From Candidatus Gastranaerophilales bacterium (GTDB lineage Bacteria > Cyanobacteriota > Vampirovibrionia > Gastranaerophilales > Gastranaerophilaceae): 64,000 nucleotides of DNA. Shown here piece after piece: positions 52,135 to 57,014 of this stretch; the first letter of the stretch is position 1; every line of letters begins with the position of its first letter. The position numbers were made by a program, and so were the translations under genes. The stretch lies in the NCBI GenBank assembly GCA_944326565.1, contig CALVEL010000001.1:372001-436000 (forward strand), in the 5' to 3' direction. The notes under the pieces are model-generated. The model saw only the letters and a list, made by a program, of their open reading frames with translations, ran no database searches and was not told the DNA's origin.

Positions 52135-54345
52135 TTAATTTTTCTTGCGATTTTTTGAATTACGTTTAGTTCCGTTTTGCGGTTTTCTTTGCTGATGTGT
52201 AGGAGTGTATGATGTTTGTACACGTTTTACGCTATACACATCAGGAATTGACTGAATACTGTTGATTACTTTTTTAAGTGTATCAATATTATTTAATTCA
52301 ATTCCTAATTCAATAATTCCTATTTTATTATTTTTTGATTTTACATTGGCGTAATTAATATTGGTATTATTATCGGAAACGGCTGCAATAATATCTTTTA
52401 AAAGCCCCATTTTTTCAGCTGTCTCAACACGAATTGTCGTACTGTATGTTTTTGTAGTATGATCTCCTGACCAGTGTATGTCCATCATTCTTTCAGGGGG
52501 GACATTTTCTAGTGTTTTGCAATCAATTCTATGAACAGATACTCCTTTTGAGCGTGTCACAACACCTACGATTGGTTCTCCTGGAATTGGGGAGCAGCAT
52601 CTTGCAAAAGAGTACATTAACCCTTCTAATCCAATAATATCTTTTTCTGATTTTTTACGTTTAGTTGTATGGAATGTATTTTCTATACTTTTCTTTTCAG
52701 GTTTTTTAAGTTTGTTAATAATTTTATTTAAAGTCGTCTCTCCATATCCGAGCGCTGCAAATAAATCATCAGCCGAAAGGTAATTCATTGTAACTGCGAC
52801 TTTGTCAAATTCTCCAGATTTAACATATTCATCAAATACGGCTTTAGTCAATTCATGTTCTAAATTAGCCTTTCCTACTTCTATATGGTCTTCTCTATTG
52901 TTTTTCTTAAACCATTGTTTAATTTTAGAAGATGCCTGTTTAGTAACTACAAAATTAAGCCAATCAAGACGCGGAGCTTGTGTTTTTGATGTTAGAATTT
53001 CAACTATATCACCATTATTTAGTTTTGTATCAAGCTGTGCAATTCTTCCGTTGATGAGTGCTCCAACAGTTCTATGACCGACATCAGAGTGAATTCTGTA
53101 TGCAAAGTCTACAGGGGTTGCGTTTATTGGCAAATCAAGAACATCACCATTAGGCGTGAATGCAAAGACTTGATCTGAAAATAAATCTAGTTTGACTGAA
53201 TTTACATAATCTTCTGCATTGGTCATATCTTTGTCATATTCAACCATTTTTCTCATCCAGCTGAATTGTAAATCAGCTGGGTTATTGGCTTTTTGAGAAC
53301 CTTTTTCCTTATAACGCCAGTGAGCTGCAACACCATATTCTGCAACTTCATGCATTTCCCAAGTACGGATTTGTACTTCAAGAGGCTTAGATCTTGGACC
53401 GATTACAGAAGTATGAAGCGATTGATACATATTGCCCTTAGGCATTGCGATATAATCCTTGAATCTTCCAGGAATAGGTTTAAATTGCGAGTGAATAAGC
53501 CCTAATACTTCATAGCATTCTTTTTCTGTGTCAACAATTACTCTAACGGCTGTTATGTCATATAAGTCGTGAAAAGCAATGTTAAGCCGTTTCATTTTAC
53601 TGTAAATGCTGTAGTAGTGTTTTGCCCTACCTGTAATTTGAGCGTTTATGCCGCTTTTTTTTACGTCTTGCGAAATTTTATCAATAAGTAATTGAACAGT
53701 CATTTCCCGTTCAGCTTTTGTTTGAGATACAAGCTGTGCTATTTCAAAATATTTGTCAGGCTCAAGATAGCGTAGCGCAAGATCCTCAAGTTCTGCTTTG
53801 ATTTTTCCGATACCGAGTCGGTTTGCGAGCGGGGCAAAAATATCGAGAGTCTCTTTTGCAATTTTTTGCTGTTTTGGTGCCGCCATAAAATTAAGCGTTC
53901 TCATATTATGCAATCTGTCTGCAAGTTTTAAAAATATAACTCTTATATCGTTTGCCATTGCAATAAAAAGACGTCTGAAATTTTCAGCTTGGCGTTCTTC
54001 TTTTGATTTGAATTGTAATTTGCTTAATTTTGTGACCCCTTGAACTAGAGTTAAAACATCATCTCCAAAAAGCTCTTTAATCTCTTCTGGTTTTGTGTCG
54101 GTATCTTCCAAAATATCATGCAAAAAAGCTGCTATAAGAGTATGGGTATCAACTTTTAAATCGACAAGAATTTTTGCAACTTCGACAGGATGGATTATAT
54201 AAGGTTCTTCTGAAATTCGGTATTGCCCTTCATGAAGTCTCTTAGCGAAAAGATATGCCTTTTCAATTTGTTGTATATCTTCATCTTCTCTGTTTTGTGC
54301 AATAAGCTTTTCTTTTATTTCATCAAATAACGGTTTTTCAGACAT
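52135..54345 (-). CDS. rel: bifunctional (p)ppGpp synthetase/hydrolase (Rel/SpoT)
   Basis: The 736-residue stringent-response enzyme makes and degrades (p)ppGpp. The hydrolase HD domain has His52 (YIIHPVEVAKIL) and HDILEDT (76-82), intact, so hydrolysis is expected. The synthetase domain has DLYDITAVRVIV and RFKDYIAMPKGNMYQSLHT. The TGS domain follows (VFAFTPNGDVLDLPINATPV), then the zinc-finger/helical region with RCCSPIPGEPIVGVVTRSKG and a C-terminal ACT domain. A basic tail (QQRKPQNGTKRNSKNRKKN) may add RNA or ribosome affinity. No good ribosome site is seen at the ATG, but the family start fits. Confidence 0.96.
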   Translation of the reverse strand: MSEKPLFDEIKEKLIAQNREDEDIQQIEKAYLFAKRLHEGQYRISEEPYIIHPVEVAKILVDLKVDTHTLIAAFLHDILEDTDTKPEEIKELFGDDVLTLVQGVTKLSKLQFKSKEERQAENFRRLFIAMANDIRVIFLKLADRLHNMRTLNFMAAPKQQKIAKETLDIFAPLANRLGIGKIKAELEDLALRYLEPDKYFEIAQLVSQTKAEREMTVQLLIDKISQDVKKSGINAQITGRAKHYYSIYSKMKRLNIAFHDLYDITAVRVIVDTEKECYEVLGLIHSQFKPIPGRFKDYIAMPKGNMYQSLHTSVIGPRSKPLEVQIRTWEMHEVAEYGVAAHWRYKEKGSQKANNPADLQFSWMRKMVEYDKDMTNAEDYVNSVKLDLFSDQVFAFTPNGDVLDLPINATPVDFAYRIHSDVGHRTVGALINGRIAQLDTKLNNGDIVEILTSKTQAPRLDWLNFVVTKQASSKIKQWFKKNNREDHIEVGKANLEHELTKAVFDEYVKSGEFDKVAVTMNYLSADDLFAALGYGETTLNKIINKLKKPEKKSIENTFHTTKRKKSEKDIIGLEGLMYSFARCCSPIPGEPIVGVVTRSKGVSVHRIDCKTLENVPPERMMDIHWSGDHTTKTYSTTIRVETAEKMGLLKDIIAAVSDNNTNINYANVKSKNNKIGIIELGIELNNIDTLKKVINSIQSIPDVYSVKRVQTSYTPTHQQRKPQNGTKRNSKNRKKN

Positions 54346-54791: not shown

Positions 54792-55349
54792 ATGCAAGTA
54801 AGTAAAATTAACTCAATTAATTATTCACGCCCTGCATTTCAGGCAAGGGTTTCAAAAGAATTACAAAATACAATATTACGTGAATCAGTAGAATTAGGAA
54901 CGGCAGGACTTAATAGGGCAAAAGCACAAATTGCGAAAATCCAAAATTGGGGTTCTCCAAATTCCATATTAGATTCAGCTCTTGATACATCAACTGGTAA
55001 AATGTATTTAGGGATAAGCAACTTTTCTATATCAAAAAATTATGGTGCTAATTTCGAAAAAGATAAAGGTAATATTTTAGATACTTTTATGTCATTAGAA
55101 AAGAATGATATTCTATTTGCGGAAAAACAAATTCAATCAGAAGTTGAAAATAATAAAGTAGCTTTAGCCATAAAAGCTTTGGAAAATAAAAAATTGTTAA
55201 AAAAAATAACAGGATCAGAAAGTCCTTCAAATGAAGATTTAGCTGCTGCAATCGATAAGTTGAGTGAAGATGATATAATTAATCTCCGATTTAACTTAGA
55301 TGAGCCTTCAAAATTTTCGGATGGCAAAATATTAGATTTTGATTTTTAA
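54792..55349 (+). CDS. unknown small soluble protein
   Basis: A 185-residue protein with AAAGGAG before the ATG. It begins MQVSKINSINYSRPAFQARV, an Asn/Ser-rich opening ending in FQA that resembles other short unassigned proteins of this lineage, and has no signal peptide. The rest is helical, with LESxxxxN-like repeats absent. No domain is recognised. It lies 61 bases after yggU and may share its transcript. The gap after it (55350-55594) holds the leader described separately. Confidence 0.6.
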   Translation: MQVSKINSINYSRPAFQARVSKELQNTILRESVELGTAGLNRAKAQIAKIQNWGSPNSILDSALDTSTGKMYLGISNFSISKNYGANFEKDKGNILDTFMSLEKNDILFAEKQIQSEVENNKVALAIKALENKKLLKKITGSESPSNEDLAAAIDKLSEDDIINLRFNLDEPSKFSDGKILDFDF

Positions 55350-55400
55350 GACTTGTTTTTTTCTTACTTTCTTGATAGTCTTATGGTTAAGGAAATATAT

Positions 55401-55457
55401 ATGGCAAACTTTGATTTAAAATTTCATTATTATCATCATCATAGTGTCCTGAGATAG
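55401..55457 (+). promoter_or_regulatory. 18-codon leader peptide with HYYHHH run, candidate attenuator
   Basis: TAAGGA (55388-55393) precedes ATG 55401, which opens a frame of 18 residues, MANFDLKFHYYHHHSVLR, ending at TAG 55455. Four His and two Tyr codons stand together, as in his-operon leader peptides. Three inverted repeats follow: IR1 55419-55430 / 55480-55491, IR2 55448-55460 / 55517-55529 (12 of 13 matched), IR3 55519-55524 / 55540-55545. IR2 and IR3 share a strand and exclude each other; IR1 and IR2 interleave. A ribosome stalled on the His codons would cover arms of IR1 and IR2. No clear terminator T run is present. Confidence 0.45.
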
Positions 55458-55594
55458 GCTATGAGTTGATGTTTTGCGCATAATGAAATTTTTATAAATC
55501 AATTCAATTCTTATAAAGCCTTTCTCAGGATAAAAGCGTGAAAGGTATGCGGATTTTAGTGAGTAAATTTATAAGAATCGGAATTGGAGAAAAA

Positions 55595-57001
55595 ATGACT
55601 TTTACAAATATAATATCGGCTATAGGAAATACAAGCAGTGTCTATCCATTAATATTAAGAGACTGTGGAGTTGAAATTCCTTCAAAAGTTTATTTGACAT
55701 ATAATGAAAATAAAGATGATAAAGAAGTTGCTTTTCTTGCGACCAGAGAGCGAATTATAGATGAGTATTCAACATCTGCTGTTTGGCTTGGTGGAATCCC
55801 GCTTGTCGAAAAAATTATTGATAAATTTGTAATAGCTAAAAAAGGTTTTAATCCGAATGTTAATTTGAAACTTTTTAACGAGAGCGATTGTCAGGGTATT
55901 GATTATAATATCAAATTGTTTGAAGAAAAAATTAAAAATAATGACCTTTCAGCCGAAATTAAAAATAATATTAAAAAAGCAATTGAGGATCTAAAAAAAG
56001 TAAAAAATAATAAAGGGTTATATGAAAAGCTTTTATCTTCAAAATTTCTTATCTCAACAGCTCTTCCAATAGCTTTTATGGGATTTATTATTCCGAAATT
56101 GGTCTTTTCCCTTACTGCCAAGACAAAGGCTGCAAAAGCTAAAAAACAAAATGAAATGAAAGATAAGAATCAATTTTCCAATATGTTTTATGGAAAGGCA
56201 TCTGGTGATGTGTTTGAAAAAGTAAGGTTTTCTAAAAAGAAAAATCCTGTATTTACCGGGAATTTTGCATCTTCAGTTGCTAATTTCTCAACTTATCAAA
56301 AAATGGCTGCAATTGATGGGGGATATGCTGTCGGAAGAGTTGTGACATCAAGAAAAAAGAATGAGGCTGTGGATTTAGGATTTAAAATGCTTGGAATGAT
56401 GTTTTTAAATTATGTAGCACCAAAGTATATTGAAAAAATTCTCGATACCACTGCAAATAAAGCTTTTAATATAGATGTAAAATTAGACCCGCTTATGCTT
56501 GCAGATAATGAATTTTTAGAACAAATATCAAACGGTTCTTTAAAATTGCCAAAAGGTGACGATGGTATCTCTCTTTTGAAATTTGTAGATGAAAATCCGA
56601 ATGAATTATTTACAAAATATGCTTTAAAATTTGAAAAAATCAACATGATTTTCGCTGATTCTAAAAATAAACAAAATGGTGTAAGAGATCCTAGAGCTTA
56701 TGTTGATATAGAAGGGCTAAGAAACTTTAAAAAATCAATTGAAGAGTTTTCCAAAAAAGCACTTGAAGGTACTATTAAAAATACCGATAATGAGATTATT
56801 TTTGAACAAGTTAAAAAATTTGCTAAAAAAGCAAAGGCTGTAAAGTCAATAAATATTATAACAAATGTAGGACTTAGCAGTTTTCTCTTAGCTTACTGCC
56901 TTCCTAAAGTACAATATTTATTTAGAGAATGGTATACAGGCTCAAAGTTGGAGCCTGGAATTGTAGATGATAATACAAAAAATACAAAAAAAGCGGGCTA
57001 A
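55595..57001 (+). CDS. unknown membrane protein behind the His-rich leader
   Basis: A 468-residue protein. I choose ATG 55595 (GGAGA 4-5 bases upstream) over in-frame starts at 55538 and 55547. Three hydrophobic stretches are visible: ISTALPIAFMGFIIPKLVF (about 150-170), a weaker one at MLGMMFLNYVAPKY (about 265), and IITNVGLSSFLLAYCLPKV near the C-terminus (about 430-450). The rest is Lys/Asn/Asp-rich. No domain is recognised and no histidine-related function is visible. The terminator at 56988-57014 overlaps its last codons. Confidence 0.6.
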   Translation: MTFTNIISAIGNTSSVYPLILRDCGVEIPSKVYLTYNENKDDKEVAFLATRERIIDEYSTSAVWLGGIPLVEKIIDKFVIAKKGFNPNVNLKLFNESDCQGIDYNIKLFEEKIKNNDLSAEIKNNIKKAIEDLKKVKNNKGLYEKLLSSKFLISTALPIAFMGFIIPKLVFSLTAKTKAAKAKKQNEMKDKNQFSNMFYGKASGDVFEKVRFSKKKNPVFTGNFASSVANFSTYQKMAAIDGGYAVGRVVTSRKKNEAVDLGFKMLGMMFLNYVAPKYIEKILDTTANKAFNIDVKLDPLMLADNEFLEQISNGSLKLPKGDDGISLLKFVDENPNELFTKYALKFEKINMIFADSKNKQNGVRDPRAYVDIEGLRNFKKSIEEFSKKALEGTIKNTDNEIIFEQVKKFAKKAKAVKSINIITNVGLSSFLLAYCLPKVQYLFREWYTGSKLEPGIVDDNTKNTKKAG

Positions 57002-57014
57002 TTACCCGCTTTTT
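56988..57014. terminator. bidirectional terminator between the membrane protein and UDG genes
   Basis: AAAAAGCGGG (56988-56997) pairs with CCCGCTTTTT (57005-57014) around a 7-base loop. A and T flanks on both sides allow it to act in both directions. It includes the last codons and stop of the upstream gene. Confidence 0.85.

Follow-up and report, generated by a model that had tools for sequence, protein, structure and literature searches.

The locus

The window, that is, the whole stretch of 64,000 nucleotides of Candidatus Gastranaerophilales DNA analysed here, carries on its forward strand a short leader ORF (55401..55457, ATG at 55401 and TAG at 55455-55457) which reads MANFDLKFHYYHHHSVLR and whose end is separated by 137 nt from the start codon (ATG at 55595) of the regulated gene (55595..56998, stop codon 56999-57001), which encodes a helical membrane protein of 468 aa. 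The leader is preceded by a Shine-Dalgarno motif, TAAGGAA (55388..55394), and by a probable promoter, TTGTTT ... GATAGT (55353..55379), which we assigned by eye: this pair is not among the matches of a consensus promoter scan, and a TTGAAA ... TATAAT-like pair is found at the same place in relatives. The first-pass annotation had let the feature begin at 55388; this is indeed the start of the leader's Shine-Dalgarno sequence, while the leader itself starts at 55401. The regulated gene has a Shine-Dalgarno sequence of its own, GGAG, at 55586..55589. At its 3' end, a hairpin with a T-rich flank (56988..57014, listed by the scan on the reverse strand) is probably a terminator between convergent genes. 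As to the neighbours, a 185-aa ORF lies directly upstream (54792-55349, forward strand), without any Pfam match and with a PAFQA motif near its start, and three genes upstream of the element a 736-aa ORF (52135-54345, reverse strand) was judged by eye to resemble a (p)ppGpp enzyme of the RelA/SpoT kind.

Conservation of the histidine codons

The leader has histidine codons at 55425, 55434, 55437 and 55440. Of the 1496 small ORFs of the window, 36 contain at least four histidines, so that the run is not exceptional in a single sequence and the decision had to come from relatives. We collected 94 regions upstream of orthologs of the regulated gene in Candidatus Gastranaerophilales, 24 from a search of 59 relatives and 70 from a search of 288 genomes. 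An ORF of 9-45 aa with at least three histidines, situated at most 260 nt upstream, is present in all 94 of them, as against 2.3% of dinucleotide shuffles and 2/94 on the opposite strand; the ORF has at least four histidines in 85/94, and an SD-like motif accompanies the ATG in 68/94 leaders. The number of histidines is kept (3-7) while the neighbouring residues of the leader peptide vary, and the length of the run differs by whole codons. In a tally which precedes the setting by hand of two leaders (L109 and L116), the 418 histidine codons are divided into 389 CAT and 29 CAC. The His-rich leader ORF which the first-pass annotation had described is thus a conserved one. The alternative named there, a simple ATC/ATT repeat, and likewise an ATC/CAT repeat, are ruled out because CAC codons are present, because the run changes length in whole-codon steps, and because the ORF has been conserved. 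That the CAT repeat and the inverted repeats described below arose by chance, as the 36 ORFs of the window might lead one to think, is refuted by conservation and covariation in the relatives, and we give this explanation a negligible probability.

The element appears to be single in its own genome: a pattern scan for a Shine-Dalgarno sequence, an ATG and a histidine run returned six matches, among which the site of the window is the sole recognised leader (the others were judged by eye), and a DNA search of the same genome gave just weak AT-rich matches and no second copy. No His-rich leader adjoining hisD was recognised in the eight stretches examined.

One might also suppose that the signal is not charged tRNA-His, and that it is the peptide, rich in histidine, which arrests the ribosome or responds to a metal. 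His-rich peptides bind metals, and a hydrophobic-basic stretch ahead of the histidine run is retained in many leaders. However, the residues around the histidines vary while their count is kept, and the histidine-free product together with the loss of HisD and HisG (see below) indicate histidine and not a metal. We consider this explanation improbable, and histidine supply remains for us the more likely signal.

Two covarying helices that share one strand

In and downstream of the leader lie three inverted repeats, all on the forward strand, whose positions as given by the first-pass annotation were recovered by an inverted-repeat search. IR1 is a perfect repeat of 13 nt, the 5' strand of which (55418..55430) lies in the leader before and into the histidine codons and the 3' strand at 55480..55492; it forms (helix P0) in the fold predicted without a ribosome. 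IR2 has its core at 55447-55460 / 55517-55530 (93%) and extends to 55445-55460 / 55517-55532: arm 1 (55445..55460), which starts 2 nt past the last histidine codon, and arm 2 (55517..55532) make the antiterminator stem P1. This stem is continued, in the predicted fold, by P2 (55463..55470 with 55498..55505, ATCAATTC). IR3, a terminator-like stem, has its 5' strand inside arm 2 (55518..55524) and its 3' strand, arm 3, at 55540..55546; it consists of CCTTTC 55519-55524 / GAAAGG 55540-55545, or of 7 pairs when written as GCCTTTC/GAAAGGT, and is followed in this copy by a degenerate tail, ATGCGGAT, instead of a good U tract. The fold of the window RNA has z = -2.76, only 2 of 200 shuffles being equally stable.

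In the relatives, IR1 exceeds the 95th percentile of shuffles in just 26/94 upstream regions, and is therefore mainly a feature of the genus of the window. The P1 helix exceeds it in 87% of the 94. A common register accounts for 78/94 P1 helices (59 distinct), with several Watson-Crick pair types at nearly every position, and 16/94 fall outside this register; in the register count the helices were chosen as the best per sequence, which favours pairing. Covariation was measured on an alignment (A4) of 23 chosen sequences in one register, the genus of the window being left out. For P1, 93.8% of cells are paired, 9/14 pairs are changed on both sides, and covariation is 0.466 as against at most 0.203 in slid controls (n=23). 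For the terminator made with the same arm 2, the corresponding values are 91.9%, 6/9, and 0.500 as against at most 0.220 (n=23). When the partner is displaced by 1-3 columns, both helices collapse. This shows that arm 2 covaries with arm 1 as well as with arm 3, and hence that IR2 and IR3 are mutually exclusive folds of a common strand, as had been proposed; the comparative check which had been suggested for the leader in relatives thus returned both conserved histidine codons and covarying helices. An automatic alignment (A2) gave with RNAalifold a weak consensus of 7 pairs at -0.57 kcal/mol, a consequence of the length of arm 1, which is 15 nt for most members of the genus of the window and 14 elsewhere; anchored counting and the single-register subset A4 were used in its place.

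The arm 3 helix is above the 95th percentile of shuffles in 70/94 sequences, and a stem score of at least 15 with a T-rich tail (at least 5 T of 8) is found in 60/94, as against 9.2% of shuffles. This looser rule supersedes an earlier terminator scan whose tail rule was over-strict and which gave 19% above the 95th percentile of controls. A good T tail is absent from the copy of the window and from two others of its genus (L024 and L034). Finally, a strand of the antiterminator loop (55472..55479, TTTTGCGC) can pair with a downstream strand (55536..55543, GCGTGAAA) which overlaps arm 3. Pairing of the loop strand with the linker ahead of arm 3 is above the 95th percentile in 22/76 sequences, and the antiterminator probably contains this pseudoknot.

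Predicted control of the start site

A further helix involves the region between the two arms of P1. A strand at 55499..55517 (TCAATTC followed by ATTCTTATAAA) is predicted to bind, in the OFF fold, the strand 55568..55587, which extends into the GGAG sequence of the regulated gene and covers its first two bases. This anti-Shine-Dalgarno strand, of consensus CAATTCT, is conserved, and its pairing with the Shine-Dalgarno region exceeds the 95th percentile in 35/78 sequences, with compensated changes such as CCGATT/AATCGG and CTCCTT/AAGGAG. We therefore find, by prediction and by conservation, a helix which hides the Shine-Dalgarno sequence and which is exclusive of the alternative fold, and this is what characterises a translational attenuator. 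The SD-sequestering helix, the probable loop pseudoknot and the degenerate U tract of IR3 in the window copy had all been overlooked by the first-pass annotation.

We calculated the openness of the Shine-Dalgarno sequence in a model where the RNA is free from 12 nt past the start of the A site. With the A site on histidine codons 1-3, the predicted openness in the window is 0.61, 0.86 and 0.76 respectively, and at the leader stop codon it falls to 0.0015. When the offset is varied over 9-16 nt, the value at the stop codon stays below 0.004 and the value at the first histidine codon lies within 0.35-0.86. With no ribosome, openness is predicted to be 0.12, IR1 being formed. A stall on the fourth histidine codon of the window copy is predicted to leave the Shine-Dalgarno sequence closed (0.0018), contrary to the simple model. 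Among the 94 sequences, the stalled state is predicted to be the more open one in 69, more than twofold in 51; in the 25 others the Shine-Dalgarno sequence is not more open when the ribosome is stalled, and in 14 it is more than twofold more closed. Since the terminator of the window copy is degenerate, the start-site switch probably dominates there, and control in this species is probably mainly translational.

Covarying helices, a probable pseudoknot and a conserved CAATTC are also what one would expect of a ligand-binding riboswitch in which the ORF is incidental. Yet the ORF and its histidine run are kept in 94/94 sequences, the pairing persists despite great variation in the sequence of the arms, and Rfam has no match to offer: searches of the window and of the region gave sub-threshold chance matches only, with the T-box family not among them, and the His leader family RF00514 had no match at E<=10 in 55340-55660, nor did it reach the gathering score anywhere in the window. 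We regard a riboswitch as very improbable, and keep to an attenuator that is read by the translating ribosome.

Distribution across genomes and histidine auxotrophy

We found the relatives through the downstream protein, and they are MAGs of Candidatus Gastranaerophilales, an order in Candidatus Melainabacteria. The protein has matches in 43/59 relatives at E<=1e-5 and in 167/288 genomes of the family at E<=1e-40. The covariance model R1, built from the element, matches once per genome in 23/59 relatives, always just upstream of the regulated gene; of the 24 genomes in which the ortholog is strong (E<=1e-80), it misses one (G022), its filters being strict.

HisD was found in 0/14 genomes of the genus of the window, as against 20/40 relatives; HisG was not found in the genome or genus of the window either, and among the 40 relatives it is present in the same 20 as HisD. 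Over the 288 genomes, 5 have both the gene and HisD, 162 the gene only, 76 HisD only and 45 neither (Fisher 3.5e-31, uncorrected for phylogeny). Counted by genus, 18 have the gene only, 12 HisD only, and 5 are otherwise. One of the HisD sequences (G197:C10:29542-30756) scores 601 bits, as against about 437-510 in other members of the family; it is the only HisD of its genus in the sample, and may have been acquired horizontally or be a contamination. The exclusion is thus incomplete, given the 5 genomes with both and the 45 that have neither. TrpA (38 strong matches) and ArgG (22 strong) likewise anticorrelate with the gene, so that lineage effects contribute. Nevertheless, the effect of HisD stays when the TrpA-positive genomes are removed (5, 161, 40 and 44 in the same order). 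A polar amino acid ABC permease family, TIGR01726, which we take to include HisQM, is found in 0/14 genomes of the genus of the window and in 12/40 relatives.

The regulated protein and its paralog

The first-pass annotation had described the regulated gene as one for a membrane protein outside the his genes, and this description holds throughout the orthologs. The protein of the window contains no histidine among its 468 residues. In 41 orthologs (21 from alignment A1 and 20 fetched), histidine makes up 0.08% of residues, is absent from 31 and never exceeds two residues. In comparison, the 36 other proteins of the window of at least 250 aa have on average 1.70% histidine and 26 paralogs 1.15%, none of either group being at zero.

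The protein resembles nothing that we could recognise. Its AlphaFold model (pLDDT 79.7, pTM 0.72) is almost wholly helical, and only two to three segments are clearly hydrophobic. Searches of Pfam and NCBIfam with 26 members gave weak matches only, none of them to a transporter family; no usable relative was found by sequence in the PDB, and no match in the plasmids searched. The best Foldseek E was 0.36, and the best VIA-align Z was 5.7 (rmsd 7.1 over 203 residues), which is within noise for helical models, while the absence of a family from VIA-align results does not rule that family out. By eye, four helices carry a similar short proline motif (GGIPL, GFIIPK, YVAPK, YCLPK), which hints at internal repeats. 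Hence, of the proposal that the product is a histidine- or starvation-related transporter-like protein, the first part is favoured by the near-zero histidine content and the exclusion with HisD, while for the second the searches gave no match to a known family or fold of transporters.

The family has a second member, the paralog (G000:C9:4289-5740), which carries other leaders. An upstream ORF ending in (M/A)NLxWGL, or in something close, with synonymous codon changes, is found in 34/35 of its upstream regions, and a further upstream ORF with at least three arginines in 28/34, as against 6.9% of shuffles. The (M/A)NLxWGL ORF lies directly 5' of the paralogs (L147 = G000:C9:4000-6400, L121-L129, L154-L172, L045-L050) and has the look of a nascent arrest peptide; the Arg-rich ORF lies further upstream, and a T run comes after it. 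In the 300 nt upstream of paralogs from other families of the order (L045-L049), the leader reads MRIR(K/S)YQ(R/K)RCF..., and then comes what appears by eye to be a strong antiterminator/terminator pair. We looked for arginine depletion in the paralogs with an Arg leader and did not find it (ratio 0.93). The paralog is present in 211/288 genomes and in 1/22 ArgG-positive genomes, and among the 60 genomes with HisD and without ArgG it is present in 37, the His-leader gene in 5. This near double dissociation, although confounded with lineage, favours amino-acid-specific roles of the gene and its paralog.

Since no known family or fold is available, the function of the protein has to be deduced from its regulation, composition and distribution. 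We see about an even chance that its role is the acquisition of histidine. Somewhat less probable is a reading in which the attenuator senses histidine yet controls a protein that serves in starvation or in the envelope generally and takes no part in histidine acquisition. The lack of a transporter family, solved relative or fold, the small number of hydrophobic segments, the parallel behaviour of TrpA and ArgG and the other leaders of the paralogs all speak for such a protein; against it, the exclusion between gene and HisD persists within the mixed genera g6, g21 and g57 (both 3, gene only 19, HisD only 33, n=55), and the Arg-leader paralog and the His-leader gene are unequally shared among the 60 genomes just mentioned.

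Proposed mechanism

We conclude that the element is very probably a ribosome-mediated attenuator ahead of a lineage-specific membrane protein, and that it would respond to histidine. The conservation, the exclusive covarying helices, the histidine depletion, the inverse distribution of HisD and the lack of HisD, HisG and the HisQM-type permease family in the genus of the window, which are computational observations, support histidine sensing. In the proposed mechanism, a ribosome translates the leader and, when charged tRNA-His is plentiful, would reach the stop codon and cover arm 1. Arm 2 would then be free for arm 3, a pairing which in most relatives makes a terminator; in any full-length RNA the CAATTCT region would pair with the Shine-Dalgarno region, so that the gene is off. 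When charged tRNA-His is short, the ribosome would stall on the histidine codons and leave arm 1 free to pair with arm 2, together with P2 and probably the loop pseudoknot; this would block both the terminator and the sequestration of the Shine-Dalgarno sequence, and the gene would be on. If the leader is not translated, IR1 would compete and the Shine-Dalgarno sequence would be mostly closed.

The protein, being almost free of histidine, can be made during histidine starvation, and most likely it helps histidine auxotrophs to obtain or conserve histidine. A broader reading, which we put forward as possible though at less than even chances, is that the protein belongs to a new family of membrane proteins, specific to this lineage, by which gut Gastranaerophilales obtain the amino acids that they cannot make. 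The leader of each subfamily would set the one amino acid to which that subfamily answers, histidine in the case of the gene of the window and arginine in that of the paralog, whose second, conserved NLxWGL leader is maybe a sensor of the nascent peptide; the histidine subfamily would have been purged of histidine for synthesis under starvation. A candidate histidine-acquisition gene is in this way named in uncultured gut bacteria from its cis-regulation, with an independent signature in amino acid composition. It is a possible hint for the cultivation of Gastranaerophilales, and a general search principle follows from it, which is to look for proteins free of the amino acid sensed by their leader.

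Comparison with known systems

The element shares with the enterobacterial his operon leader (RF00514) a leader peptide with histidine codons and a contest of antiterminator and terminator for one strand. It differs in that it precedes a single membrane protein and not histidine biosynthesis, in that it adds the sequestration of a Shine-Dalgarno sequence, and in that its host is without HisD and HisG. In the leader-peptide translational attenuators, for example those of erm genes, the position of the ribosome on the leader likewise frees or hides the Shine-Dalgarno sequence; here, however, the signal would be the supply of an amino acid and not an antibiotic, and most relatives have a terminator too. 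A search of the literature on Gastranaerophilales or Melainabacteria with histidine, auxotrophy or leader peptides did not, within its range, bring up the element.

PMC9413887 describes, in some Firmicutes, His-leader attenuators before his operons, with 3-5 histidine codons and alternative hairpins; unlike those, the leader of the window precedes a gene which is not a his gene, in a histidine auxotroph. The same paper describes histidine auxotrophs in which the histidine transporters HisXYZ and YuiF are under T-box or HisR control. As in those systems, a membrane protein related to histidine would here be controlled, in an auxotroph, by a system responsive to histidine, but the sensor is a leader peptide and the protein has no detectable relation to the transporters described there. 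Low cognate bias, the tendency of proteins needed in starvation to avoid the missing amino acid, is described for amino acid pathways in PMC4209129; compared with the cases given there, the depletion seen here is near-total and concerns a membrane protein, not a known biosynthetic enzyme. Set beside all these systems, the attenuator is a conserved new form of His-leader attenuation, which would govern both the start of translation and the termination of transcription.
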